Virus record (IMG/VR): IMGVR_UViG_3300047564_001006
Span: 1 to 43,926 of that record
DNA from: a virus
Reading direction: 5' to 3' (one strand)
Length of the DNA stretch: 43,926 nucleotides
Both the position numbers and the translations under genes were made by a program. The notes below the pieces were generated by a model. It worked only from the letters and a program-made list of their open reading frames with translations, did not search any database and was not told the origin of the DNA. Positions 924-41,821 of this stretch are shown here, one piece after another (the first letter of the stretch is position 1; every line of letters begins with the position of its first letter).

Positions 924-949
924 GGGCAGTGTCTTCAAGGACACTGCCC
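924..949 (+). repeat. Palindrome copy 1, 10-bp hairpin
   Basis: GTGTCTTCAAGGACAC at 929-944 is extended by GGGCA on the left and TGCCC on the right, giving a perfect 10-bp stem with loop TTCAAG. It lies in the 56-nt gap between the first two genes. No U-tract and no ribozyme follows, so it may cap or separate messages rather than terminate on its own. Confidence 0.85.
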
Positions 950-1924: not shown

Positions 1925-1958
1925 GGGAGGGTGGTGTCTTCAAGGACACTACCTTCCC
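1925..1958 (+). repeat. Palindrome copy 2, 14-bp hairpin joined to a ribozyme
   Basis: The core GTGTCTTCAAGGACAC is at 1934-1949. The stem extends outward to 1925 and 1958 through unique flanks (GGGAGGGTG left, TACCTTCCC right) that pair with two G-U wobbles. Pairing in unrelated flanks argues for an RNA hairpin. The 3' arm ends at 1958 and hammerhead stem III starts at 1959. Confidence 0.85.
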
Positions 1959-2009
1959 CCTGTCCACGGGTGTGTACCCGTGCTGACGAGTCCGAGAGGA
2001 CGAAACAGG
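1959..2009 (+). ncRNA. Type III hammerhead ribozyme 1
   Basis: All three helices and the catalytic core are present. Stem III is CCTGT (1959-1963) with ACAGG (2005-2009). The cleavage triplet is GTC (1962-1964), with the cut expected after C1964. Stem I is CACGGGT (1965-1971) with ACCCGTG (1976-1982), loop GTGT. The core strand is CTGACGA (1983-1989). Stem II is GTCC/GGAC (1990-1993 with 1998-2001), loop GAGA, followed by GAAA (2002-2005). The open helix is stem III, so it is type III. Cutting would separate the amidoligase message from the next gene, leaving a 74-nt leader before the ATG at 2039. Confidence 0.92.
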
Positions 2010-2038
2010 CAACCAAGCAACCAAGTTAAACCTAGTAT

Positions 2039-2500
2039 ATGAGCACTACATCATTAATCCGCAGCCTCAGACGGGCTGCCAACATCGAGTCAGACCTATC
2101 TGACATTGCACTAATCGAGGGGCTGAGTAATAGCCTCAAGGACATCGAGGACTACCTACAGGGACACGGGCACTCCGACAACCCACAGGACTACCTAACT
2201 GCTGAGTTTAGGGCTGCCCTGCGGTCATTGGAGACCCTGTGGCAGCAGGTATACCACGAGAGCCAACAGGAGGAGGAGAGCGAGGCTGACAAGGTCATTG
2301 CCACCCATTGGGTTATCGGCAAGTATGATTGCACTCAGAGACTTTACATTTCGGCATTCGCTGACGAGGAGAACGCCCGTGAGTGGGAGCACACGGCTAA
2401 ACGTAAGTACGACTCAGTCGTGTTCACGGACAGGGTCTCTGTGCTCAAGCACCTGTGCGACAGGCACTACTATGACTATTCACTTTACCTAACATTCTAA
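2039..2500 (+). CDS. Unrecognised early protein, 153 aa
   Basis: I do not recognise this small acidic protein. It has a helical N-terminal half with a Glu-rich run around residues 76-83. The C-terminal half contains a W-V-I-G-K-Y-D strand and ends in an aromatic, His/Tyr-rich tail (HYYDYSLYLTF). It is the first gene downstream of ribozyme 1, so its message would carry a ribozyme-made 5' end. The ATG is preceded by an AT-rich leader (AACCAAGTTAAACCTAGTAT) very like that of the gene downstream of ribozyme 2, with no Shine-Dalgarno sequence. Another gene follows after 10 nt. Confidence 0.75.
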   Translation: MSTTSLIRSLRRAANIESDLSDIALIEGLSNSLKDIEDYLQGHGHSDNPQDYLTAEFRAALRSLETLWQQVYHESQQEEESEADKVIATHWVIGKYDCTQRLYISAFADEENAREWEHTAKRKYDSVVFTDRVSVLKHLCDRHYYDYSLYLTF

Positions 2501-2510
2501 ATTCTAAACA

Positions 2511-2858
2511 ATGAAAAAAACCTATCATCACATTGTGTTCCTACAGGGACACGAGGCAGACGAGACTCTGCAAATCATCAACGAGAACGGCTGCGAGGCA
2601 GCCGTGCACCACCTCCTTCAGTGGGACAACGGGGAGTATTACGAACAGAGAGACACCCCATCCGCAGGTTCGGGTGACTACACCTACACCTCCGAGTGCG
2701 GGGACTACCTGCTCACGTACAACCCCCGCATAGGCTATGCGGGTCTCGAGTACGTGGAGACAGACGGACCATACCCCAAAGACCCCGAGGAAAAGTATTG
2801 GGATGCCTGTCAGACGTGGGCTGAGAGACGTAGCCACGAAGACGAGGACCTGTGGTGA
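2511..2858 (+). CDS. Unrecognised early protein, 115 aa
   Basis: A very acidic, Tyr-rich, soluble protein of 115 residues and no recognised family. It starts 10 nt after the previous gene at the sequence AAACAATGAAAAAAACC, and probably shares its transcript. The C-terminus (about 100-115) is charged, ending EDEDLW. Its composition resembles other small phage early proteins that bind host proteins, but no function can be read from the sequence. Confidence 0.75.
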   Translation: MKKTYHHIVFLQGHEADETLQIINENGCEAAVHHLLQWDNGEYYEQRDTPSAGSGDYTYTSECGDYLLTYNPRIGYAGLEYVETDGPYPKDPEEKYWDACQTWAERRSHEDEDLW

Positions 2859-2868
2859 AAAAAATAAA

Positions 2869-2900
2869 TTTGCATATGTTAAATCTATGTACTACCTTTG
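2869..2900 (+). promoter_or_regulatory. Bacteroidota-type early promoter
   Basis: -33 TTTG (2869-2872), 20-nt spacer, -7 TACCTTTG (2893-2900), followed by TACC. Spacing and sequence match those at 4764-4795 and 8344-8375. It starts a transcript just upstream of the ATG at 2918, so an upstream in-frame ATG at 2852 is not the real start. Confidence 0.8.
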
Positions 2901-2917
2901 TACCAAATCTATACGAT

Positions 2918-3247
2918 ATGAAATACAGAATCAATCAGAGCAGCGTGGATGAGTCCTTTGACATCATCACTGAGGACGGAGGCGTAGCCGTCTTCTATCA
3001 CAACCAAGAGAACTACGTGACGCATTACTATCAGAGAAGCCTCAGCGAGTGCAACCCTGCGAACTACGTGTGGGACGAACTATCAGAGGGCAAAATCTAC
3101 ATCAAGGATTGGGAGGGTGACCCGAAGGTCAGCGAGGTAGTCGAGGACGCATTGGGATGGCTTATGTTCCCTGCACCTGCCGAGGGGTGGACACAGGACG
3201 ATAGCCTGTGGGCTGAGTTTTTCGACAAGGAAGGAGGGGCTGAGTAA
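2918..3247 (+). CDS. Unrecognised early protein, 109 aa
   Basis: Soluble acidic protein with no recognised family. It contains a DIITEDGGVAVFYHN beta-like segment near residues 15-29 and many Trp/Tyr residues. I chose the ATG at 2918 because the promoter -7 box at 2893-2900 lies inside the longer open frame starting at 2852. Its stop overlaps the next start (TAATG), so the two genes are likely translationally coupled. Confidence 0.75.
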   Translation: MKYRINQSSVDESFDIITEDGGVAVFYHNQENYVTHYYQRSLSECNPANYVWDELSEGKIYIKDWEGDPKVSEVVEDALGWLMFPAPAEGWTQDDSLWAEFFDKEGGAE

Positions 3248-3507
3248 TGACTGCCGAGTACACCCCACGTAACTACAAGTTCACAGGTGACGAATACATT
3301 GCGAACTGCATACCTGCGGACGCTATGCCTCACTTCTTCAATCACGGACGGGAGGGTCGGATGCTATACATCAAGAACCATCCGTGGGAGGTGGGTGCTT
3401 ATGACAAGTACACCGAGACAATGTACGACATCAGTAACGCACAGGCTTACGAGTGGTACGAGAAACAAACAGGGCTCACCCTGTGCATACAGGTGGGCTG
3501 CAACTAA
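3247..3507 (+). CDS. Unrecognised early protein, 86 aa
   Basis: Small aromatic-rich soluble protein that overlaps the preceding stop by one base (TAATG). I do not recognise it. Length and composition resemble its neighbours (Tyr/Trp-rich, no membrane segment). It is the last gene before the second hairpin-ribozyme module, so ribozyme cleavage would define the 3' end of its message. Confidence 0.7.
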   Translation: MTAEYTPRNYKFTGDEYIANCIPADAMPHFFNHGREGRMLYIKNHPWEVGAYDKYTETMYDISNAQAYEWYEKQTGLTLCIQVGCN

Positions 3508-3524
3508 TTCCACGTGGTAGTGGA

Positions 3525-3552
3525 GGGGTGGTGTCTTCAAAGACACTGCCCC
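3525..3552 (+). repeat. Palindrome copy 3, hairpin joined to ribozyme 2
   Basis: The core GTGTCTTCAAAGACAC is at 3531-3546. Unique flanks GGGGTG (3525-3530) and TGCCCC (3547-3552) extend the stem with two G-U pairs. The last base, C3552, is also the first base of hammerhead stem III. The two structures therefore abut, as at 1958/1959. Confidence 0.82.
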
Positions 3553-3602
3553 ACGTCAGGGAGTGAGTGCTCCCTCTGAGGAGTCCAAAAGGACGAAACG
3601 TG
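3552..3602 (+). ncRNA. Type III hammerhead ribozyme 2
   Basis: Stem III is CACGT (3552-3556) with ACGTG (3598-3602). The cleavage triplet is GTC, with the cut expected after C3557. Stem I is AGGGAG (3558-3563) with CTCCCT (3570-3575), loop TGAGTG. The core is CTGAGGA (3576-3582). Stem II is GTCC/GGAC (3583-3586 with 3591-3594), loop AAAA, followed by GAAA (3595-3598). Compared with ribozyme 1, stems I and III have different sequences but keep full pairing, while core and stem II are conserved. This is strong covariation evidence for a real ribozyme. Confidence 0.92.
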
Positions 3603-3625: not shown

Positions 3626-3877
3626 ATGATAACGCAAAAAACAATCACCGAGTATGGCTTCGAAGAAATCGAGGACTACTTCTACTACATCATCGAGAGT
3701 CGTATGAACGGGCAGCACAAACAGGCACGTCAGTTATTCGCTGACCTGTCCGAGCAGCAGCAGCAAGACTTCTTCAACTACATCGAAATCTTCTTCGCCT
3801 ATGAGGTGGAGTATGACGAGAACGGAGACCGCATCGACCCTGTAACTGAAATCAAAACCTATCTTAAAATCAAATAA
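3626..3877 (+). CDS. Unrecognised small acidic protein, 83 aa
   Basis: First gene after ribozyme 2. The open frame extends upstream to 3563, but those codons would be ribozyme stems. The ATG at 3626 follows the AT-rich leader AACCAATTTAAAAACCAAGTAT shared with the gene after ribozyme 1, so I place the start there. The protein is helical and rich in Glu, Tyr and Phe, with a run of three Gln residues near the middle. No family is recognised. Confidence 0.75.
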   Translation: MITQKTITEYGFEEIEDYFYYIIESRMNGQHKQARQLFADLSEQQQQDFFNYIEIFFAYEVEYDENGDRIDPVTEIKTYLKIK

Positions 3878-4829: not shown

Positions 4830-5951
4830 ATGTGCATCATCATCGTAAAGCAACGCAACATCGAGATTCCTTCAGAGACTCTCAAAAATTCATCACGCCT
4901 GAACCCCCACGGATTGGGGGTCGTATGGCTCGACACCTTCGAGGTGTCTTATCACAAGTCCAAGGATTGGCAGGTGCTTGACACTGCCCGTCCTTACATC
5001 GCTCACTTCCGCTACGCCACTGTCGGCAAGGTCGGTCTCGACAATACCCACCCGTTCAAGTGTGGTCCGACAAGCAACGAGTTCTTAATGATGAACGGGA
5101 CTATCCACGGGCTCGGGGACAAGAACAAGTGCGACTCAAAAGTATTGGCTGAGTCCTTGGAGAATGTGCCACGCCACAAGTGGAAGAGAGAATTGGAGAA
5201 GCACAGGCTTGTTCGGTTCGTCACTATCAACACCCGCACCCGCACGTTCCAAATCTACAATCGTGACCTATGGACCTTCAAGGATGGGGTGTGGTACTCG
5301 AAGGACAACGTCCTTCAGGACAACCTTGTCGCAGTGTACGGCACACTGAAGAAGGGGCACGGCAACTACTACCGCTATCTCACTGACTCAAAGTTAGTGG
5401 GGTCAGGCAAGACCAAGGACAAGTATCCACTGCTGATTCAAGGTCTGCCGTACCTGTTGGACGAGAAGGGTGTGGGTCACAACGTGAAGGTGGACGTGTT
5501 CAAGGTCAGCGACACGGTCCTCGGCAAGTTAGACCAACTTGAGGGTCACCCTCGGTGGTACTGCCGTAAGCAGGTTCAGATTCAGATGAGCAAGAACAAG
5601 GTCGTGACTGCTTGGATATACTTCAACCCTCAGACAAAGCGGTCAGCGACAGACAGGATGCACGAGTCCTACGAAGCATTCAGTCAGACGTACCGCAAAC
5701 CTGCCCGTGTACAAGAGCCGACAGACTTCTCGAAGCCAACGTGGTCACCATCTTACAGGCAGTTAGAGTTCAGTTCTTTTGATGACTACTACGCACAACT
5801 GAGTGGGGTCGAGGTGGAGGATGAGCCCGTGGTTGACACACCATACTGCACCTCCTGCTATCGTGACCTTGAGTACGATGGGTTCAACAACTACTGCTGC
5901 ACGGGATGTAACGAGTGGTACACCCAACAGGACGTGGACAATTTACTATAG
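4830..5951 (+). CDS. Class II glutamine amidotransferase / gamma-glutamylcyclotransferase fusion with zinc ribbon
   Basis: A 373-residue three-part enzyme. Residues 1-160 look like an Ntn-type glutamine amidotransferase. Cys2 follows Met directly and would be the nucleophile after Met removal. HFRYATVG (59-66) and MMNGTIHG (87-94) match the conserved H-x-R-x-AT and NG motifs. Residues 165-285 resemble the AIG2/GGCT cyclotransferase fold: VAVYGTLKKG (167-176) is the substrate loop and LDQLEGHPRWY includes the likely catalytic Glu238. The C-terminus is a zinc ribbon (C340, C343, C356/C357, C360). Together with the amidoligase at 970 it suggests a pathway that makes and releases glutamyl- or amide-linked groups. 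The substrate is unknown. It has its own promoter. Confidence 0.78.
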   Translation: MCIIIVKQRNIEIPSETLKNSSRLNPHGLGVVWLDTFEVSYHKSKDWQVLDTARPYIAHFRYATVGKVGLDNTHPFKCGPTSNEFLMMNGTIHGLGDKNKCDSKVLAESLENVPRHKWKRELEKHRLVRFVTINTRTRTFQIYNRDLWTFKDGVWYSKDNVLQDNLVAVYGTLKKGHGNYYRYLTDSKLVGSGKTKDKYPLLIQGLPYLLDEKGVGHNVKVDVFKVSDTVLGKLDQLEGHPRWYCRKQVQIQMSKNKVVTAWIYFNPQTKRSATDRMHESYEAFSQTYRKPARVQEPTDFSKPTWSPSYRQLEFSSFDDYYAQLSGVEVEDEPVVDTPYCTSCYRDLEYDGFNNYCCTGCNEWYTQQDVDNLL

Positions 5952-5966
5952 TGTCTTTGAAGACAC
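5951..5966 (+). repeat. Palindrome copy 4
   Basis: GTGTCTTTGAAGACAC, starting on the last base of the preceding stop codon. The flanks do not extend the stem, which has 7 bp around a TG centre. It is followed after 2 nt by the tRNA-like minihelix, echoing the hairpin-plus-ribozyme order seen upstream. Confidence 0.85.
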
Positions 5967-5968
5967 AC

Positions 5969-6011
5969 CTGATGGATGGTCGCAGGGTGGGTTCGACTCC
6001 CACCCCGTCAG
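5969..6011 (+). ncRNA. tRNA acceptor/T-arm-like minihelix
   Basis: CTGATGG (5969-5975) pairs with CCGTCAG (6005-6011) as a 7-bp acceptor-like stem with one G-U. GTGGG (5987-5991) pairs with CCCAC (5999-6003) around the loop TTCGACT, a classic T-loop. Only 11 nt (5976-5986) replace the D-arm, anticodon arm and variable loop, so this is not a functional tRNA. It ends GCAAAA, not CCA. It could be a decayed tRNA, or a tRNA mimic that recruits RNase P, RNase Z or a tRNA-binding protein. It lies between genes, 22 nt before the next ATG. Confidence 0.45.
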
Positions 6012-8404: not shown

Positions 8405-8641
8405 ATGTCAAAATCAAAAGAACTATTTATGTCAGCCCGTGAGCGAGATGCCCACGCTGACGGAGGGAGTGTCCTTGAAGACACTAAAGCCGAAGAACTC
8501 CTGTCTCTCCACTACGCATTCGAGGGTCGGCAAAGCACAATCAATCTTATTCATAGTATGTTCGATGACTTCGGGAAGATATTCTCTCCCGGGAACTCGG
8601 GCTCAACATTCAAATCATCAGATGAAAAAGGAAGTATTTAA
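8405..8641 (+). CDS. Unrecognised small protein carrying a palindrome copy, 78 aa
   Basis: First gene after the 8344 promoter, which is why I use the ATG at 8405 and not the longer frame from 8297. It is mostly helical and polar. Palindrome copy 5 lies inside it and is read as S-V-L-E-D-T at about residues 22-27. The next gene overlaps its end by 20 nt. Confidence 0.7.
   Translation: MSKSKELFMSARERDAHADGGSVLEDTKAEELLSLHYAFEGRQSTINLIHSMFDDFGKIFSPGNSGSTFKSSDEKGSI
8469..8484 (+). repeat. Palindrome copy 5 (inside a gene)
   Basis: GTGTCCTTGAAGACAC read in frame as V-L-E-D-T within the 78-residue protein. Flanking A/T adds one base pair. No extended stem. Confidence 0.85.
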
Positions 8642-10306: not shown

Positions 10307-10433
10307 GATTCGAGTGTCCTTGAAGACACTGCTATCAGATATCAAAAAACAAAAGGACAAGGAGGTTAACGTCCCGAGCCAACCAAGTCCATCCACTAAA
10401 CAAACCGGGACAAAACCATTAAATAAAAAGTAA
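10290..10433 (+). CDS. Small basic protein spanning palindrome copy 6, 47 aa
   Basis: Starts 17 nt before the exonuclease stop and ends one base before the SSB start, filling the gap exactly. It is Lys-rich; the N-terminal half is helical (MKHLSKIRVSLKTLLSDIKK) and the rest is Pro/Ser/Thr/Lys and probably disordered. The palindrome is read here as V-S-L-K-T, a different frame from the V-F/L-E-D-T copies. It may bind DNA; no family known. Confidence 0.55.
   Translation: MKHLSKIRVSLKTLLSDIKKQKDKEVNVPSQPSPSTKQTGTKPLNKK
10314..10329 (+). repeat. Palindrome copy 6
   Basis: GTGTCCTTGAAGACAC just downstream of the exonuclease stop and inside the small basic ORF. A/T flanks extend the stem by one pair only. 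Confidence 0.85.
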
Positions 10434-13387: not shown

Positions 13388-14862
13388 TGGACTATAAAGG
13401 AATGAACATTGTAGACCGCATCCCTGCGTACTGCAACCGAATGATGCTTGAGCAATGCAAAGTCTTGTATAAGATTGTGACTCAAACTAAAGAGGTTAAG
13501 GTACGCAGTGGTCGGAACTACATAACAAACCACGTCCCCAAATACCCAACTCAACCCGAGGTGGTTGAGAAATTAAAAAACAGTATCACGTACTATCAAA
13601 ATTTACATAATCACGAAATGAATAATCAAATCGAATTAAGGGACTATCAAAAGAACATAGTCTCACGGGCAACAGAAATCATCGGGGAACACGGGTTCGT
13701 GTACCTTGCGATGGAAGTCAGAACAGGGAAGACTCTGACAAGCCTCAGCATCTGTGACAACCTTCCAAACGTGGAGCACGTATTGTTCCTGACCAAGAAG
13801 AAGGCAATTGATTCTATCACTGCCGACTCAGATAAACTATGCCCATCCTACGTTCTATTCGTTATGAACTACGAGAGCATCCATAAACTACCCAAAGTAA
13901 AGTGGGATGTAATCGTATGCGATGAGGCTCATAGTATGGGTGCGTTCCCAAAGCCAAGCCTCCGGGCTATGCAGGTGAGAGACCTTATCAGAGAGAACGG
14001 GAGCAGGGTAATCCTTCTATCAGGTACACCAACGCCTGAGTCTTACTCTCAGATGTATCATCAAATCTGTGGCATACCAAACAATCCGTTTAAGAAGTAT
14101 TCAAACTTTTACAGGTTTGCCGATGACTATGTCAAGAAGAGTCAGAAGAAAATAAACGGTGTATTGATAAACGACTACTCTCACGGATACCCTACCATCC
14201 TCGATGCAATGGTCCCCTATACCATCAGGTGGTCGCAGCAGGAATCAGGCTTCGTGGTAAAGACTACAGAGGAAATACTCCGGGTCCAACTTGAGGACAA
14301 GACACTTGGCATAATCAAGAAACTTCAGAAGGACTTGGTAATTGAAGGAAAGGGAGAGACCATATTGGCAGACACCCCGGTAAAACTTATGAGCAAACTT
14401 CACCAACTGTACAGTGGCACGGTAAAGTTTGAGAGTGGTAACTCAATGGTGCTCGACCTGAGCAAGGCTAAGTTCATAAAGGAAAGGTTCAAGTATCAGA
14501 AGATTGGAATCTTCTACAAGTTCAAGGAAGAACTGAACGCATTGCAGCAGGTATTTGGAGACGAACTGACCACCGAACTCAGTGTCTTTGAAGACACCAA
14601 CAAGCACATAGCCCTTCAGATTGTATCAGGACGTGAAGGCATATCATTGAAGAAGGCTGACTGCCTTGTCTACTACAACATCGACTTCAGTGCGACAAGT
14701 TATTGGCAGAGCCGGGACCGGATGACGACCAAGGACAGGCTTGAGAATAAAATATATTGGGTGTTCGCACACGGTGGAATAGAGGACCTTATCTACAAAG
14801 CAGTGTCGAAAAAAAAGGACTACACTGTATCACATTTTAAAAGAGATTTGTTAATATTGTAG
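13384..14862 (+). CDS. SF2 helicase / SNF2-like ATPase
   Basis: A 492-residue DNA-dependent ATPase. After a ~95-residue N-terminal part come the Q-like motif E-L-R-D-Y-Q-K (about 81-87), Walker A M-E-V-R-T-G-K-T (110-117), D-E-A-H (180-183), L-S-G-T-P-T-P-E-S (motif III), and in the second RecA-like domain S-G-R-E-G-I-S-L (motif V) and Q-S-R-D-R-M (motif VI). It probably remodels or unwinds DNA during phage replication or recombination. It overlaps the primase-helicase stop by 4 nt. Palindrome copy 7 lies within it (S-V-F-E-D-T). Confidence 0.88.
   Translation: MMDYKGMNIVDRIPAYCNRMMLEQCKVLYKIVTQTKEVKVRSGRNYITNHVPKYPTQPEVVEKLKNSITYYQNLHNHEMNNQIELRDYQKNIVSRATEIIGEHGFVYLAMEVRTGKTLTSLSICDNLPNVEHVLFLTKKKAIDSITADSDKLCPSYVLFVMNYESIHKLPKVKWDVIVCDEAHSMGAFPKPSLRAMQVRDLIRENGSRVILLSGTPTPESYSQMYHQICGIPNNPFKKYSNFYRFADDYVKKSQKKINGVLINDYSHGYPTILDAMVPYTIRWSQQESGFVVKTTEEILRVQLEDKTLGIIKKLQKDLVIEGKGETILADTPVKLMSKLHQLYSGTVKFESGNSMVLDLSKAKFIKERFKYQKIGIFYKFKEELNALQQVFGDELTTELSVFEDTNKHIALQIVSGREGISLKKADCLVYYNIDFSATSYWQSRDRMTTKDRLENKIYWVFAHGGIEDLIYKAVSKKKDYTVSHFKRDLLIL
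14582..14597 (+). repeat. Palindrome copy 7 (inside the SF2 helicase)
   Basis: GTGTCTTTGAAGACAC read in frame as V-F-E-D-T, between helicase motifs where the residues look unconstrained. A/C flanks do not extend the stem. Confidence 0.85.
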
Positions 14863-16175: not shown

Positions 16176-16578
16176 AACCGAACAGGACCTAATCCGAGAG
16201 AGAAAAGCCGTTGAAAGGTTTGTATCAATATTCAAAGGTGGGTTTGAGAAACTTAGCCCGGATGATATTGACTATAAGATATTCGATAAGAAGGGGACCT
16301 TGATAGCATACGTTGAAGTCAAGGGCAGACTCAAGAACATTAGCAGAGCATACCCTCTACCGATATCAATATTCAAGGTCACAAAACTTTGGGCAAAGAG
16401 ATTAAACCCCACGGTTATATGGGCTTGTGATGATGGCATCATCTATGGGAAACTGAAAGAACTACACGGAACGGTATGCGTTGGAGGTAGAAAGCCAAGA
16501 GATGGCTCACCATATGACATAGAGTTGATGGTGTACTACGACAAGCAGAAGGCACTGAAGTATATCAGATATGCGTGA
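16156..16578 (+). CDS. Putative PD-(D/E)XK nuclease-like protein, 140 aa
   Basis: Last gene of the early block. D-I-D-Y-K-I-F-D-K-K-G-T-L-I-A-Y-V-E-V-K-G-R (about 37-58) gives the strand-D / strand-E-x-K pattern of small restriction-like nucleases. The rest is mixed alpha/beta with W-A-C-D-D-G-I-I-Y-G-K. It may be a second recombination or repair nuclease beside the VRR-NUC gene. Its stop codon lies inside the convergent terminator hairpin. Confidence 0.65.
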   Translation: METKSFETEQDLIRERKAVERFVSIFKGGFEKLSPDDIDYKIFDKKGTLIAYVEVKGRLKNISRAYPLPISIFKVTKLWAKRLNPTVIWACDDGIIYGKLKELHGTVCVGGRKPRDGSPYDIELMVYYDKQKALKYIRYA

Positions 16579-16610
16579 GTGTCCTTGAAGACACTCACTA
16601 TTCTTTTTCA
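16575..16610 (+). terminator. Convergent terminator built on palindrome copy 8
   Basis: GTGAGTGTC (16575-16583), loop CTTGAA, GACACTCAC (16590-16598): a perfect 9-bp stem containing GTGTCCTTGAAGACAC (16579-16594). On the + strand TATTCTTTTTC follows, a passable U-tract. The stem overlaps the + gene's TGA (16576-16578) and meets the - gene's TAG (16598-16600), so one hairpin lies exactly where early and late transcription converge. Confidence 0.8.
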
Positions 16611-17068
16611 CTCCACACAGTACCACCCTTCTTTTTACCACCACCCCATATGGTTCCACCTTTTTGTTCTTCTTTGTTCCATACAGATTCTCCCTCTTCA
16701 CCTTTCTTTTTCTTCTTCTCTTTGCTCCACACTGTACCTCCTGTGCCCCCTTGGTAACCATACATCAGGTCTTTCTCACGTTGAAGTTCTTCTCGTTCTA
16801 ATCTTTCTTCTTCACGTCTTGCTTCCTCGAAATCATAGAGACTTCCTCCCGGACCATAAAGGTCATCGTACATATCAGGGAAGTATCGCTTCATATCCTC
16901 CTTGCTCATAGGTCTTTCAGCAGGAGTTTTTGCTTCTTCTTGAGTTGGTCTGTATGACTTGCTGATACCAAGCATATCGTATACTGCATTCTCATCAAAG
17001 CCATCCTGAACTCCGTTGTATACTCCAATGAAAGGGTCTACCTGAGTCTTCCTCTTCCATCCCCTTCT
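16598..17068 (-). CDS. C-terminal end of the giant virion protein in a shifted frame
   Basis: Open frame of about 156 residues, in-frame with an internal Met at 16975 but clearly continuing upstream of it. Its first codons after 17060 read K-T-Q-V-D-P-F-I-G-V-Y-N-G-V-Q-D-G-F-D, which looks like real protein joined to the giant protein's R-K-M-K-K-G. The last 55 residues carry four GGTVW-like repeats (GGTVW, GESVW, GGTIW, GGTVW) separated by Lys/Glu-rich spacers. Skipping one base at the G4 run 17061-17064 fuses it to the upstream frame, giving about 3,576 residues in total. See the finding for causes. Confidence 0.65.
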   Translation of the reverse strand, partial: RRGWKRKTQVDPFIGVYNGVQDGFDENAVYDMLGISKSYRPTQEEAKTPAERPMSKEDMKRYFPDMYDDLYGPGGSLYDFEEARREEERLEREELQREKDLMYGYQGGTGGTVWSKEKKKKKGEEGESVWNKEEQKGGTIWGGGKKKGGTVWSEKE

Positions 17069-20000
17069 TCATCTTTCTAAATACCTGCATATATGGGTTC
17101 ACCACATTGTCAGCACCACGTTTGGTCTTGTCTCCCTCAATGTATGCCAAAGTCGTCTCAACCGCAGCCCCAATCAGTGGGATAGATTCAATCAGGTTAA
17201 GACCCAACATAGCCTTACCCATCTGCTTTAGAACCTCCTCACGGTCATCGTCCTCTCCCTTTATCAGTTTGGCAATGTTTGCAGTACCAACGAACAATGC
17301 GTTGGCTACACCAAGGTTTATCACAAAACCACGGATATCACGGGTGCTTGGCATTTGTCCGTTCTTCAATGCACGAAACATATTTGTCTGTGCCTGAAGA
17401 ACTTTGTTTATCTGCAAGAACGTAGTGCTACCAAACATTGTGAAGGCACGAGCCAACTCGCTACTGTTCTGCTGCAATGATATCTTCTCAGTGCCACGTC
17501 TTGTTTGCTGAGTGGCGTTGTAGTTGTTGAATGCTTCCAAAGCCTCAGCCTGAGTCATACCGTTGGCAATGTCCCGGTTGTAGTTAATCATATACCCCAT
17601 CACACCAAGGATATCACCAAGCACAGTCGGTCCTGCTCCTCCTGTTTTGAATGCCCGGACTGCACGTGCCCATATATCTGTACGCTTATCTATGGATGAG
17701 AATACATTGGAACCGGACTCAAGACCATACACATCACCCTCGATACCTTTCAGCAAACGGTCTCTTACATTGGCAGACATACCATATGCCTTACGTATTT
17801 GAGATGGCATAGTCGCCATAACCTTTGCACCGTCAACCATAAACATCATCAGGTCAACAGGACCTTTGATTAACCCGGGAACCTTTGAGCCCGGAGGGAA
17901 ATAACTGTAGTCCTCAAATGCATTGATAAACGAGGTAGCCTGTTTGATTATCTGAACCGCTTTGAACGCAAGGGCAAACCCGGTGAACTTGGTCATCAAC
18001 TTTCCAAGAGCCGTCTGCTCTTCTTTCTGACCTGCGTTTGGAGTGATGGCAAAGTTTACTGAACGCTTTACCACGGTCTTCAATCCTGACTCCTCAAGTA
18101 GCACATTGAATGCAGGACTTTGGAAGATTGCGTTGAGGTCTTTGACACCCTCTGCATAAGCCTTATACTTCTCCATCGTTACGAAGTGGCTCTCAACCAC
18201 ATCAGAGAAGTCGTAGTTCAACTCAATAAGACCCGCTACATCGGTACGTTCCTTCAATGCCGGGGCAGTCTCTGCGTTAAAGATTCCATTGAAGTCACCA
18301 TCCTCCAACAGTTTAGAACTCACCTTCTGAGACTGAGTAATCGTTGGAAAGTAGTTAGGTATGTACCCAAGATTCACATCGTTTACGTGAGAGTAAACAT
18401 TGTTTACAGATTCGTAGTAGTCATTGCTGAAGTAGTCAACCAACTTGTTGGCAAACTCAATAGGCTCGAGACCCACGATATCTTTAATCTTGTCTATCTG
18501 AGCAGCATCCCATCCCATTTGCACCAACTTCTGACGCTGCACATCATTGAGCGACAGTGCGTATATGCGGAGAAGTTTGTCTGCATTGTATACCTGCGTT
18601 CTGCCATTGATAGTAAACTCGTGGATACCTGTTTGCAGCATATTGCGTATCTGCTTGTACCCCTTTGTAATACCCGGGATACTGTTTGCCATTGCATCCA
18701 AGTTCGCCATCTCTGAGAAGTATCCAACCTTAGCCTTCTCATCCATTCTATTCAGAGGCTTGTATACATTGTCTGTAAAGAATGTCAACCCCTTTGCCGT
18801 GTTGTCAAACAGGTTCATAAAAGAACCCAAGTGAAGCAGACGCTTACGTGCAAAATCCTTTATGCCTGTGATGGTAGTGTAATCCCAACGGGAAACCAAC
18901 TGCTTAAAACCTGACCATATCTTCCCCTGTTGGAACGCTCTGCGTATAGCAGCACGGTCCTGAACAAGTTCGTTACGGCTCTTCGGTCTTACAACTGTCT
19001 CAATCTTTGATACCTTAAAAATATTTGTAGTGCCATCTAAGTAAAATCTGAAATTAGATTGACCATCTGTAAAACTTATAAACTCTCCATTAGGGTCTAT
19101 AAAGTCTACAGTTACTTCTCCCTTATAGTTGTACTGCCCTGAAGTATCCTCAATTACTACTTTATCTCCAACCTGCAATGCACCAACCTCACTGTCAGAT
19201 AATGTTTTTTCAACCTCTTCCGATACGAACAAATCCGGATGTAACTCAGCAACCTGTGCATTAGCCTGTTCCCTCATTGCTGCCATACGCATAGCACGAA
19301 CCTCTCTCCGGGTCTTGAGTTTCATTATGGATTCAGCACGGGCATCTTCAAGTTCCTCAAGTAATTGCTGAACATCCTCCAACTCCATATTCATCAGGTC
19401 GCCAAAGGTGTCATACGCATATGCCTTATTGAGGAGAGCCTGTTCCTGTACAGTAAGTTTCTCTCCACGGTTCTGCTTATCAATAGCCTCGCTGATAGAA
19501 CCATCCGCATCAGCCTGTGCCAATTCATTTGCTAAGTTCACGATGAACTGAGTGTCATCGCTGACAATCGCTCTCAGGATTGGCTTAACCTCAGCAAAGA
19601 AAGCCTGTCCCTCAGGGTCAAGACCACGACTCCTACGCTTCCCGGTAGTGGTCATTGCAGCCTTTGCCTTCTTGTTGACCAACTCAATCATCTGCTTTAT
19701 CACAGACTTCTTCATCTTTGCTCTCTGCTGCTCAACAATCTTCATCACCTTCTCGGTGTCTGCAAGGATGCTGCTCTCAGTAGCGTTTGATATGATTGAA
19801 ATCAGTTTGTTAATCTGAGCCTGAGAATACATATCAGACTTAGGCAGGACAGAACGGATGAGGTTCTTCACTGCAATCTTAGCCTGTTGCAATTCTTTCG
19901 CACCAATCTTACGCTGACGCAGGTTGTTTCTGATAGCACTTATCTGACGGGTAACATTGGTGTTCGCCTGTGTTCCGATAGTCCTGTCAAAGGCACTAAT

Positions 20001-23000
20001 CAATTCCATCTGAACAGTATCAGACTGTGCTTGGAAGATAGGATTAGCCTTCAGTAACTCAATAGCCTTCTCACGAATCTCTCCCCACGTCTTGGTCTGC
20101 TCTCTCCGGATGCCACCACGTGGACCCATATGGGCAAACCTCTGTAGTTCAGCACGTACCTCTGTAAATAACTGATACCCTTTTTGCACACCCCCCTCTA
20201 TGTTTGCGAACTCACGTGGCAAATCTGTTGTAATATCAACCTGAACTACGAGTGCATTGTTGATGTCACTCGCACGGAAGCCACGGTTTAGCAGCACTTG
20301 TTTGATGGCAGCGTCAGAGAATCCATTGGCACGTGCCTGTTGGATGATTGACTGCATAGACTGCGTGTTGCTGAACATAGCCTCAGGATTCTTCAGTTGC
20401 TTCTTCTGAACCTCTGTAAGTTTTATCTCCTTGCCACTGAAGATATCTGCCAAAGCAGTACCTATGAATTGGTCAAGTGTAAGATTCTGAATCTCCTCTT
20501 CAGTGAGGTCCTTCGACATCTTGAAAGACTCCTTGATGAATCTCCACATACCAAGCAACCACTCCTTGAATTTAGATTTGATTGCTGCATTCACCATCAC
20601 TTCACCCTTGTTGCCAATCAAGATAGCCATCGTCTCATTGATGGCTCTTGCCCGGTCTCCCGGATACTTCTTCATCTGAGCCTCAAATATCTGCTTGACC
20701 TTTTCGTCATTGGCAATACCTTCCTCAACCAACTCTACACCACGGTTATATATCTGCTTCCCTTTCTCTGAGGTTTGCAGATAGTCGGTCCAAACGTGAC
20801 CAAATTCGTGGATGGTTGTATTGAACAGAGCAGACTCACTATTGTGTACGTCAGGGTTTATGTAGATATCTCCATTGACAGTTACGCCATAGATAACTTG
20901 GTCGCCCTTCATATACATCTCGGTCCCAACCTGAGCCATCACATTATCAAATGAAACCTTATCAGTTGATATGGTCACTCCCGGGAATGTTATGTTTAGG
21001 AAGTTTGCAAGTTTAGTTGCATTTGAAATATCACCCTGTGCTACTGCACCAACAAAATCAGTCTGAGTTAATCCATTTTGTACCGCAACCGAAGTGGTCA
21101 ATATAGACTCTACAGAAGATGGTTGGAACTCTTTATCGCCAATATCACTTGTTTCAACTGTCCAAAACTCTTCAGGGAGAATCCCCTGCTTCTGTTCCGC
21201 AAACGATATCTCTTCGTAAACCTTTCCAACAAGAGCCTCTGCCTCCTCAAGTTTGCCCTGCTCTCTAAGATTAGCAGCCTCTTGACGCAGAGCCTCAACT
21301 CTTTCGTTTACTCCCGAGAAGTTTACGTATGAGTTCTGCCCACGGGTCTCTGATGTCATTGCCTGACGTGCCAATTTTGAGTACATACGTGCGTGGACGT
21401 TCCAAGCATTCTCCTCTCCAATAGCACCAAATGAATTGCCCAACTCTGAATGACCAAAGAAATCGTGGACCGCACGGAACATATCGTTTACCAATAAAGG
21501 CTCACCGTTCACATCAAAGAATCCTGATTCACGTAGCAGTACATTTCTATCACGCTGCTCAGGAGTAATCTTATCATCTCCAAATCCGGACTCAGTTGAG
21601 AATATTTTCATACGCTTATTCTCACGCAAATCCTCAATCATCTCACGTGAGTTACCATATGGCTCATTGTTGTTAATCTCAACCACATACCCTGCATCAA
21701 GTATAAACTTGTATTGCTCAAGAGTCTCACGAGCCATAGCCTCATATGCTTTTCTTACATCAGGTGCAGTTGGATTATCTGCCATCGCTACGAAGGCATC
21801 TGAGATTCTTTTTGCTCTTTCTTTGTCGATGCTTCTTGTACCGTAGAACCGAGGACGAGGTCGCCCAAAGGCTGCTTCGTGATATCTATCCGCAATTTCC
21901 GCAGCCTCCGGGAGTGGCTGATTGAAGAGTCGGTTGCCGGGCTTAATAATTTTTTTTCCATCTCTTATAGGTTTTACAAACTTTGATTCTGCTTTTATCA
22001 ATCCTTTCAAAGCAAGATTGTATGCTTCAGGATACGCTTTAACGAGGGCTACAGGTTCGTCCAATATCCCAATTGGTCTACCCGCTAATCCATACTGATA
22101 GTTTGGATGATTGAAGTCTCCATTCGCAGTGTTTAGAATGCTTGGATTCAACACGTCAATACCAACTATAGCAACAATACTTCTGCTCGGTATGTCTGCA
22201 ATGGTTGATTCAGTAATTGTGTTTACCACTTCAGCCAAATTCAAGAGTTCATATCTCTTGCTTTCCTTTATATCCTTTACCTTCTGTGTTGCAGGTATGC
22301 CAATGATAGCACGAGCAACTAATGAATTAGGCGTGGGTTTAGAGGTTTTCTTTTTTTGTCCCGGCAGATTAGGTTTGCCATAACCAATTACATTGATTAG
22401 GTCCTTACGTGCATTAAGGTTTTCTATCTGAGTGAAAATCTCAGGAGCAAGTAGTTGCTCGATAGACTCAAGATTATTGTCTTGAATTAGATTCAAAACA
22501 TTTTGATAACCACTTGCTTGTGTCAAGTAGTTCTTCCTTGTGTTTTCAGTCTTGGCAGTTTCTGCTCTTTTTGTAAGTGATTCAATATCCTTTTTCAACT
22601 GAGACTGAAGAACACTCAATGCTCTTCTCCGGTTAGCCTCAGGGAACTCCAATATATTATCAGCAAGAACCCGGGCAGTAGCCTCGTTAGATAGGATAGA
22701 ACCCTCACCCATCTTTACTACCATCATAGGCACAAGACCATTATACTCCGGATTGTTTTTCCAAAACTCTTCAAATGTTGGCTTGTTAGCCTTATATATT
22801 TTTTTGGCTTTTTGTAAAGCCTGTTGTGCGTTCTTCTCAGAGGTATACGCCCACGCTGAGTTTTCGTTGGTATAGTTGAACCCAATGCCACCAAACAAAC
22901 CGCCAATCGTTCTGCCTGTGTTTTGATTCGTAACCTCTCCTGTAGTAAGTTGGTCGGATATGGTGAACACAACAGGGACCCCGTTGACAATCTGTATGCC

Positions 23001-39543: not shown

Positions 39544-40299
39544 TTATGCAGACTCTAAGTGGAACTCTAACATCTTCAGAGCCTCGATACCCTCGTCAGA
39601 CTTCAGGAACAACGATACCAAAACATACGGGTCTTCGCCATATGGAACGGTAAGCATTTTCTTCTTGTTTGTCGGGGTATTATACCACACCTCTTTGTTC
39701 CCGTTTCTGAATCCCAACAACCCCTTATCAAAGAAGATATGGACGTTTGATTGAAGTTTCAGCATTGGGTCCTCAAGAGCCTCAAGGAACTGCTTCGGAT
39801 AGTTACGGGCATAGATAAGGATATCACGCTTCAATTCGGCAGTGGTAACCTTTGTGGTGTCTCGTTGGAAGAGAACACGACCAACTGTTTCAAGTTGCTC
39901 AATGCTCATCTCACGTGCAGCAATTAATGCATCCACCTCTGAAGTCAATTCCTCTACCTCCTTAACTGCATCACGCTCATTGTCAACTTCTTCAAAAAGA
40001 ACATTGTTCTGAGGATGGTAGTAAAGGAACTCCTGTAGTACAGGATTGGTTTTTGGAACAAACAAAAAGCCACGCTCAAAGATGATTGGCTCGATAAGCG
40101 GGTTGCCATCTTGCTCATCCTCAAATGGGGACTTTTGGTTTACTGCGTAGCGGAGAGCCCGGTTCTGATTCTTTTCCTCATCATACCACATTAAGGGATA
40201 CCTACGTGTGTTCCGGGTTGAGATTGTGTAGGACAGTGGTGCGAGTTCGTTGCGAAGACGGTAGTACCTGTCTTTCGGTGTCAATTTTACTTTTTTCAT
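39544..40299 (-). CDS. Unrecognised capsid-block protein, 251 aa
   Basis: Soluble, charged, helical protein downstream of the capsid gene. N-terminus basic (K-K-V-K-L-T-P-K-D-R-Y-Y-R-L-R). Middle E-E-V-D-N-E-R-D-A-V-K-E-V-E-E-L-T-S-E-V is a coiled coil (about 102-130). C-terminal half mixed alpha/beta. It is bracketed by terminators (39.5 and 40.3 kb), so it may be expressed at a different level from its neighbours. No family recognised; a head-stabilising or connector role is possible. Confidence 0.7.
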   Translation of the reverse strand: MKKVKLTPKDRYYRLRNELAPLSYTISTRNTRRYPLMWYDEEKNQNRALRYAVNQKSPFEDEQDGNPLIEPIIFERGFLFVPKTNPVLQEFLYYHPQNNVLFEEVDNERDAVKEVEELTSEVDALIAAREMSIEQLETVGRVLFQRDTTKVTTAELKRDILIYARNYPKQFLEALEDPMLKLQSNVHIFFDKGLLGFRNGNKEVWYNTPTNKKKMLTVPYGEDPYVLVSLFLKSDEGIEALKMLEFHLESA

Positions 40300-40324: not shown

Positions 40325-40356
40325 AAAAAAGGGGAGTGTCTTTGAAGACACCCCCC
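40325..40356 (-). terminator. Capsid-gene terminator built on palindrome copy 11
   Basis: On the - strand GGGG (40356-40353), G, GTGTC, TTCAAA, GACAC, T, CCCC (40334-40331), then six T (40330-40325). The palindrome core 40336-40351 is the upper stem; a single mismatch separates it from the G/C clamp. It follows the capsid stop by 16 nt. Confidence 0.85.
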
Positions 40357-40372
40357 ACTGAAAATCTACGGA

Positions 40373-41821
40373 TTAGGCTCCGTAACGGAACAGGAAGAAG
40401 TTATTCGCTCCCAAGGTGCACACGGCACGTTCAGAGAGGAAGTTAACTTCCATTGCATCGAGGTCGCTTGTTGCAGCACCTCCGGCAGAACCTGTAATCC
40501 AAGTTTTGTACCTGCGGTCTTCAGCCTCAGACGCACGGTAACGCACGTGGAGGAAAGGACGCTTGGCATTCTTACCAAGGATTTGGTCGTACACGGTGGT
40601 AGAACCTGCGGGAACGAGCATACCTGTGATGACGTTAGCAGTGGTTGTACCTGTAGTAGACAGGGTCAAACCTCCACGCATAGTCGGGTCGTTCAGGTAT
40701 TTCCAATCTGACTTATAGAAGTCGTAACCTCTGCGGAATCCACTGAAGCCAAGATTCAAAGCCATATCGGTGTCGTTGTCGAACAGACCGAAAGACGCAG
40801 CGTTAGCAGCACCCGTACCGTTGAAACCGTTCAGGGTAGCCAACATATCGTCAATGTCGAAAGAGAACTCACGGTTAACGAAGAGAACATTCTCCTCGAT
40901 AGAGCCCTGCTTGTCAAGACGAGAAACGATTGTGTCGAAGTCAACCAATGTGGTAGGGTTACCTGCACCCCATACGTTACCACGAGAGTTAACAACGTAG
41001 AACACACCCTCAGAACCTTTGTTACCAAAGTTGGGGTTCAACGCAGCGTTAGCAGCACCTGAACCTGTCTCGGCAGGAACGGCTTCCAACATAGCGGTTT
41101 CGAGGTAGTCCTCAAAACGGAGACGAGTCTCGTGCTCTGATTTCAAATACCACAGATAACCTGTAGCACCATTTTCGGTGGTTACTTCAACCCATCCAAT
41201 CTGAGCCATATCAGAACCTGAAACGGCATACTTGTCTTTGATGATGATGGGAGAGTTGCTGAAGATTTCATCTTCGGCTTCCAATGAACCAACCATACCT
41301 ACAGTGCCCTTCTTAAATTCAGAACCGTAGATGAATACGGTGAATTTGTTGGCTGCTGAGGCGTTAGTCATACCACCACCCTCATAGAAGGCTACATCAA
41401 AGGTGTCAGCCGAAGTGTTAACTGCGGTAACGATACCCTTGTTTTGAGTAGGACCTGCTACGTTGGGGGTAATCATAACGGTTTGACCGGGACGGATAGC
41501 GATACCTGTTACGTTAAGGTCATTAACGGTGAAGGTAGCACTGTCAGCACCTGTCAAAACAGTGGTGGTTACATCCACGTACTTGGTGTGAAGACGACCT
41601 TGTTCTGCCCATTTGATTTGGTCAGAGTTAGAAGGCATCTCAGCACCAACCATACGAAGGAAGGATGCTACGGTGCGGTTTCCGTAACGCTCAAATTCTT
41701 TCTCATAAGTATCAGGGAGATACTGATTCAAGAAGTTGAAGTTAGTAATGTAATTGGTGGATAGGGCAACCTGCTCTGCTGAGGGTTGCAACTGATATCC
41801 GGGTGTCGATAGAACTGCCAT
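40373..41821 (-). CDS. Major capsid protein (HK97 fold), 482 aa
   Basis: Identified by position after the scaffold gene, length and composition. N-terminal region N-F-N-F-L-N-Q-Y-L-P-D-T-Y-E-K-E-F-E-R-Y-G with R-T-V-A-S-F-L, a beta insertion with Thr/Val/Gly (about 80-175), then I-I-I-K-D-K-Y-A-V-S-G-S-D-M-A-Q-I-G-W, and C-terminal R-A-S-E-A-E-D-R-R-Y-K-T-W-I-T-G-S and F-L-S-E-R-A-V-C-T-L-G-A-N-N-F-F-L-F. The closing block resembles capsid proteins of crAss-like and Cellulophaga short-tailed phages. A dedicated terminator follows, fitting high expression. Confidence 0.85.
   Translation of the reverse strand: MAVLSTPGYQLQPSAEQVALSTNYITNFNFLNQYLPDTYEKEFERYGNRTVASFLRMVGAEMPSNSDQIKWAEQGRLHTKYVDVTTTVLTGADSATFTVNDLNVTGIAIRPGQTVMITPNVAGPTQNKGIVTAVNTSADTFDVAFYEGGGMTNASAANKFTVFIYGSEFKKGTVGMVGSLEAEDEIFSNSPIIIKDKYAVSGSDMAQIGWVEVTTENGATGYLWYLKSEHETRLRFEDYLETAMLEAVPAETGSGAANAALNPNFGNKGSEGVFYVVNSRGNVWGAGNPTTLVDFDTIVSRLDKQGSIEENVLFVNREFSFDIDDMLATLNGFNGTGAANAASFGLFDNDTDMALNLGFSGFRRGYDFYKSDWKYLNDPTMRGGLTLSTTGTTTANVITGMLVPAGSTTVYDQILGKNAKRPFLHVRYRASEAEDRRYKTWITGSAGGAATSDLDAMEVNFLSERAVCTLGANNFFLFRYGA

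Follow-up and report, generated by a model that had tools for sequence, protein, structure and literature searches.

A hairpin joined to type III hammerhead ribozymes between phage early genes as a probable self-processing mRNA 3'-end maker

The window, a viral record analysed over its whole length of 43.9 kb, has its early genes at 1-16.6 kb on the + strand and its late genes on the - strand, and two of its early-block spacers were found to carry a composite unit in which a stable hairpin directly adjoins a type III hammerhead ribozyme. Each unit is probably a self-processing maker of an mRNA 3' end, equipped with a guard hairpin. Situated between two early genes, such a unit would comprise a stop codon, a stable hairpin, a type III hammerhead, approximately 25 nt and the next start codon, with the RNA cutting itself at GUC^N and thereby splitting the early transcript. 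The upstream mRNA would be left with the hairpin, a 5-6 nt tail and a 2',3'-cyclic phosphate, and the downstream mRNA would begin with a 5'-OH and the closed stem I hairpin. In this arrangement the hairpin would stand in for the closed stem III with which the upstream product of type I and type II hammerheads ends and, like a terminator hairpin, would most likely shield the upstream mRNA against 3' exonucleases.

The components of the two units are as follows.

1925..1958, + strand: hairpin 1, palindrome core 1934-1949, arms extended by 9 bp (1925-1933 with 1950-1958)
1959..2009, + strand: type III hammerhead ribozyme 1 (RF00008 E 4.2e-6; covariation in relatives), with stem III 1959-1963/2005-2009, stem I 1965-1982, core CUGACGA 1983-1989, stem II 1990-2001 and GAAA 2002-2005
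1964..1965, + strand: predicted self-cleavage site 1, GUC^C, after C1964, positioned from the hammerhead consensus
3525..3552, + strand: hairpin 2, palindrome core 3531-3546, arms of 6 bp (3525-3530 with 3547-3552)
3552..3602, + strand: type III hammerhead ribozyme 2 (RF00008 E 1.3e-6; covariation in relatives), with stem III 3552-3556/3598-3602, stem I 3558-3575, core 3576-3582, stem II 3583-3594 and GAAA 3595-3598
3557..3558, + strand: predicted self-cleavage site 2, GUC^A, after C3557, likewise positioned from the consensus

Hairpin 1 starts 8 nt past the stop codon of the gene at 970-1917 and is followed by the hammerhead and then by the ATG of the next gene at 2039, whilst unit 2 follows the gene at 3247-3507 and precedes a probable ATG at 3627, the genes having been called on ORF length alone. 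The initial annotation had described a GTGTC...GACAC hairpin joined without a gap to a hammerhead on two occasions, and both the coordinates and the RF00008 matches (E of 4e-6 and 1e-6) confirmed this; at the second junction, C3552 is able to pair either in hairpin 2 or in stem III of hammerhead 2. Both ribozymes possess the core CUGANGA / GAAA / NUH in type III order, and they resemble the Hammerhead_3 family (RF00008) in core nucleotides and in all three stems, but the family model stops short of the upstream hairpin, its limit being stem III. Their scores of 40.5 bits (hammerhead 1) and 42.3 bits (hammerhead 2) lie below the gathering threshold of 48.5 bits, at which Rfam lists no RF00008 match in the window, whilst the module of one relative (L084) clears it at 48.7 bits. 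As this cut-off is curatorial, a score beneath it is no argument against hammerhead identity. The folding z-scores of the hairpins were -5.0 (hairpin 1) and -3.5 (hairpin 2), and the loops of the two ribozymes suggest, though they do not prove, fast cleavage. An alternative fold was noted at 1918-1965 in unit 1, where GGGGCAG, situated just 3' of the stop codon, is complementary enough to pair with both the cut site and the 5' strand of stem III; this would block the ribozyme, and a terminating ribosome could prevent it. No pairing of this type was seen in the one relative inspected.

A pattern scan of viral contigs was conducted for the palindrome GTGTCTTCAARGACAC, GTC and CTGANGAG in that order, followed by a filter for a complete ribozyme. 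The initial annotation had proposed searching other phages for the palindrome near a hammerhead, and the scan returned at least 81 stretches, at least 74 of them distinct, with a complete type III hammerhead, although such scans sample the contig collection under simple stem rules and some of the type III ribozymes may be false. Among the matches listed, the unit was located between early genes of about 80 other viral contigs. The same scan of 257 Gb of GTDB genomes gave 94 stretches and a single complete ribozyme, on a Cytophagales MAG contig, showing that chance matches hardly ever pass the filter for completeness. A short gap characterised 72 units, of which 59 had the hairpin exactly flush with stem III and 64 had it within 1 nt. 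Stem III began a median of 34 nt after the stop codon, and the next ATG lay a median of 28 nt beyond the ribozyme.

Both halves of the unit are conserved as structures. The hairpin arms were 94.5% paired and contained 33 double changes against 14.6 expected, a value that none of 500 shuffles reached, with the five outer arm pairs covarying. In the ribozyme stems, all 504 cells (14 pairs in 36 relatives) were paired, 147 were changed on both sides compared with 38.6 in shuffles, and 12 of the 14 pairs had such both-side changes. It is from this covariation and the hammerhead consensus that we infer self-cleavage.

Fourteen genomes were examined, 12 of which contained hammerheads, and all 21 strict type III ribozymes in them carried the palindrome and fell within the stretch of early genes that begins with gene 1 and ends with the GGACT gene. 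The spacer preceding homologues of the gene at 970-1917 held the palindrome only in 28 cases, the palindrome and a hammerhead in 10, a hammerhead with no upstream palindrome in one and neither element in 14, at least one of the 28 (L283) being a type I hammerhead with the palindrome as its stem III. These mixed states indicate that the ribozyme comes and goes beside the palindrome. By primase, the closest named relatives were MW202828.1 from spring water (79% identity) and Flavobacterium phages (42%), which, together with the Cytophagales contig, points to a probable host within the Bacteroidota. The window module had no DNA match in the phage collection, and neither a type III hammerhead nor the palindrome was present in the first 49 kb of Maribacter phage Panino. 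An isolated phage, Flavobacterium phage elemoF_6-3D, does encode a type III hammerhead (L792 17865-17921; Rfam E 2e-6), situated beside divergent genes, in the leader of early genes that run leftward, and unannotated in the record. In the sequence shown, neither the palindrome nor any strong hairpin adjoins it.

The hairpin was next compared across hammerhead types, using at least 229 distinct phage type III hammerheads retrieved from viral contigs with three palindrome-free patterns and one palindrome-based pattern. Over the 35 nt preceding stem III, the mean MFE was -14.8 kcal/mol for palindrome units and -11.0 kcal/mol for 149 other type III hammerheads, in which unrelated hairpins occupy the same position, compared with about -5 kcal/mol for windows further upstream; the same flank was at background in type I (-4.6 kcal/mol; 97 ribozymes) and type II (-6.1 kcal/mol; 151 ribozymes). 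After de-replication, the fraction below -8 kcal/mol was 0.93 for type III with the palindrome, 0.67 for other type III, 0.14 for type I and 0.29 for type II, and with de-replication and shuffling controls the non-palindrome type III ribozymes differed from type I (p 5e-9) and from type II (p 2e-12). About a third of the non-palindrome type III hammerheads had no strong adjacent hairpin. Types I and II rule out a flanking hairpin as a general hammerhead requirement. Their closed stem III ensures that the upstream product ends in a hairpin without any being added, and the last 45 nt of that product were accordingly structured in 99% of type I, 98% of type II, 100% of palindrome type III and 81% of other type III hammerheads. 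The 3' flank of type III was structured in only 8%, and the 5' end of the downstream product was inconsistently so (36% for type I), so that the structured 3' end is the property common to the types.

A hairpin that serves an upstream mRNA should be missing where there is no such mRNA. Strong hairpins were present in 80 of 96 (83%) non-palindrome type III hammerheads for which a gene on the same strand ends no more than 100 nt upstream, and in 6 of 26 (23%) with none within 150 nt (p 1.5e-8). Some members of the group lacking an upstream gene may be chance or antisense ribozymes, but the contrast survived a strict filter (54 of 68 versus 5 of 22; p 3e-6), and the hammerhead of elemoF_6-3D, a single case, also fits the rule that the hairpin follows an upstream gene. 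These comparisons are the grounds on which 3'-end protection is proposed. The self-processing 3'-end maker put forward in the initial annotation thus drew agreement from three comparative tests, each of which was able to fail; the palindrome itself did not prove exclusive to the modules, being distributed genome-wide with further copies inside genes.

The strongest alternative treats the hairpin as a folding aid, which would stack on the short open stem III or block upstream mispairing, speeding or securing the folding of the ribozyme and having no role after the cut. Such a role would suit the exactly flush junction of most modules and a stem III of just 4-6 bp, and the hairpin would presumably fold ahead of the ribozyme during transcription. 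Type II ribozymes, however, have an open stem that is just as short (4 bp in 141 of 151) and no flush hairpin, and a hairpin on the downstream side could stack equally well yet is almost never present. The hairpin is, moreover, mostly missing in the absence of an upstream gene, and type I relatives contain the palindrome inside the ribozyme, as the closed stem III. Since the hairpin is specific to type III, occurs on the 5' side only and tracks an upstream gene, the 3'-end maker is favoured, and we consider a folding aid unlikely.

The palindrome was represented by 11 exact copies in the window, in both orientations. At up to three mismatches, 14 copies were observed against 2.2 expected from shuffles, and none had one or two mismatches. 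The copies away from the ribozymes and from apparent terminators were the following.

924..949, + strand: palindrome (core 929) as a 10-bp hairpin without a ribozyme, between the genes at 233-913 and 970-1917
5951..5966, - strand: palindrome copy, arms not extended
8469..8484, - strand: palindrome copy within a coding region
10314..10329, - strand: palindrome copy within a short ORF after an exonuclease-like gene
14582..14597, - strand: palindrome copy within the helicase gene
23915..23930, - strand: palindrome copy within the 3444-aa late gene
30280..30295, + strand: palindrome copy within the late gene 30012-30422

The 3444-aa late gene (16995-27329, - strand) occupies nearly a quarter of the record. 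At 5951-6011, the palindrome is followed by a stretch resembling a tRNA T-arm (ggtgggttcgactcccacc), with relatives being similar, and this may be a tRNA remnant or an attachment site. In 35 of 51 relatives, homologues of the GGACT gene (4830-5951 in the window) have the palindrome in their 5' leader, just 3' of a promoter-like sequence and within GGGTTC...GCCC; a few relatives have an unrelated hairpin instead.

These copies bear on a second alternative, in which the palindrome is a DNA site bound by a phage protein (an operator, a stoperator-like block, or a partition or packaging site) and the hammerhead just happens to lie in the same spacer. The pattern GTGTC-N6-GACAC occurred 4-19 times in each of 50 related records, in which the reversed pattern was absent, and coding regions held about half of the palindrome copies in the window and 13 relatives. 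Pairing of the arms beyond the core was 0.37-0.54 in coding copies, which is the chance level, 0.38-0.72 in intergenic copies and 0.76-0.86 at ribozymes, indicating that extension of the hairpin goes with RNA ends, whilst the core is also kept elsewhere. The helicase copy was intact nucleotide for nucleotide in 10 of 14 genomes, and both half sites, GTGTC and GACAC, survived a change of E to N; the nucleotides themselves thus seem to be selected, which suggests selection acting on DNA or RNA inside the coding region. MW202828.1 (L649 16954-28363) likewise has 14 identical perfect palindromes, GTGTCGTTAACGACAC, in its early region, several of them between stop and start codons, without extended arms and without hammerheads.

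A DNA site nevertheless leaves unexplained the extended, covarying arms at ribozymes, the flush junction and the unrelated hairpins that occupy this position in other phages. Copies occur in both orientations, and the candidate binder, the product of the first early gene (233-913), gave no PDB fold match with E below 0.7 from an AlphaFold model of pLDDT 89. As an account of the unit, this reading is distinctly improbable. Coding copies, which have no place in the 3'-end-maker model, and those of MW202828.1 need another role, so the DNA-site reading is likely true in part for the core palindrome, which may serve as a DNA site alongside its RNA role.

The palindrome was also found at other presumed transcript ends. 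Five type I hammerheads belonging to the same clade (L265, L274, L281, L282 and L283) have it as their closed stem III, and their upstream product would again end in the palindrome; most new contigs returned by the corresponding type I pattern proved to be a coding repeat and were rejected, leaving these five real cases. Two further copies in the window resemble terminators.

16575..16598, unstranded: palindrome (core 16579) as a 9-bp hairpin at the convergent early/late junction, terminator-like, with a T-rich 3' flank
40325..40356, - strand: palindrome hairpin (core 40336) resembling an intrinsic terminator, followed by TTTTTT, between the genes at 40373-41821 and 39544-40299

Both sites are conserved, that at 40336 recurring in relatives. 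Taken together, the copies adjoining type III ribozymes, forming stem III of type I and occurring at terminators suggest one hairpin at presumed ends that are made in three ways.

That the palindrome with a T run makes terminator-like sites elsewhere in these genomes raises a third alternative, namely that the hairpin stops or slows RNA polymerase and the ribozyme acts on read-through RNA only. The hairpins at ribozymes are G+C-rich, as those of terminators are, but no U run lies straight 3' of them (mostly 1-3 T in the next 7 nt), a run being found in the window at 40336 only and weakly at 16579, and a stop at that point would keep the ribozyme from being made. The terminator explanation fails at the ribozymes for want of the U run, and is very improbable. 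A chance neighbourhood of two common elements is refuted by the module counts and the GTDB control, the flush geometry and covariation standing equally against it, and its probability is negligible.

Passages of Perreault et al. 2011 (PMC3088659) describe clustered hammerheads in prophages, between phage genes, some of them active in vivo, and propose that these break up long phage transcripts into mRNAs the length of an operon or a gene; a mapped transcript 5' end of halovirus HF2 is placed within 3 nt of the hammerhead cut. Those hammerheads and the unit are alike in being intergenic and in having a transcript-cutting role proposed, whereas the flush hairpin of type III, its dependence on ribozyme type and upstream gene, and the common palindrome are not described in these passages (PMC3088659). 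In the full-text literature, with subscription papers mostly outside coverage, no account was found of type III hammerheads with an adjoining hairpin. The initial annotation knew of no described system of this form, which within that literature holds for the composite unit and the hairpin rule but not for hammerhead cutting of phage transcripts, proposed in 2011 in the passages cited above (PMC3088659). The ribozyme itself is known; on the same coverage, the composite unit and the comparative hairpin rule are new.

The protective role proposed for the hairpin has precedent, in that 3' secondary structure such as a terminator is established to resist bacterial 3' exonucleases (reviewed in PMC3997798) and strong terminators raise the abundance of upstream transcripts (PMC11696848). 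Intrinsic terminators and the unit share a stable hairpin near the mRNA 3' end (PMC11696848). The 3' end of the unit would come from self-cleavage, however, with the downstream RNA still transcribed, whereas that of an intrinsic terminator comes from the U run and polymerase release. In the early mRNA of phage T7, RNase III hairpins are cut between genes, which divides the polycistronic RNA and leaves hairpins at 3' ends; the cut is made there by a host protein, whilst the RNA of the unit would cut itself. The promoter-early stem-loop cassettes of phage T4, in which a stem-loop ends one gene and the next element starts expression, are repeated between small variable early genes, their second part being a promoter rather than a ribozyme. 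Mycobacteriophage stoperators are asymmetric 13-mers, oriented with transcription, bound by repressor and often located in short intergenic spaces (PMC9283540). Like the palindrome, they are short sites repeated many times across a genome (PMC9283540), but the palindrome has palindromic arms, and its asymmetric centre occurs in both orientations relative to transcription.

The role of hammerheads in bacteria and phages has been called an open question (review, PMC6155905). The comparison of the three types suggests that making protected mRNA ends could be a general job of phage hammerheads, under the rule that the upstream product ends in a hairpin, by means of the closed stem III in types I and II and of an added flush hairpin in type III when a gene lies upstream. 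This rule turns the question into a specific, testable claim on mRNA 3' ends, and the unit suggests a compact natural part for obtaining defined, protected RNA ends without proteins. A broader proposition, which we advance tentatively as less likely than not, is that all three phage hammerhead types are general protein-free makers of hairpin-protected mRNA 3' ends, and that in this clade one 16-nt palindrome, common to ribozyme ends and terminators, may link ends to DNA sites via a recognising protein.

Two further observations concern the placement of the other types. In 53 of 97 phage type I hammerheads, a stop triplet in any frame, often TTAA, was present in the 5' strand of stem I or within the 3 nt before it, an arrangement in which the ribozyme would begin at the gene's stop codon. 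The contigs L650, L654 and L726 each contain four or five type II hammerheads between successive genes, all within a few kilobases.
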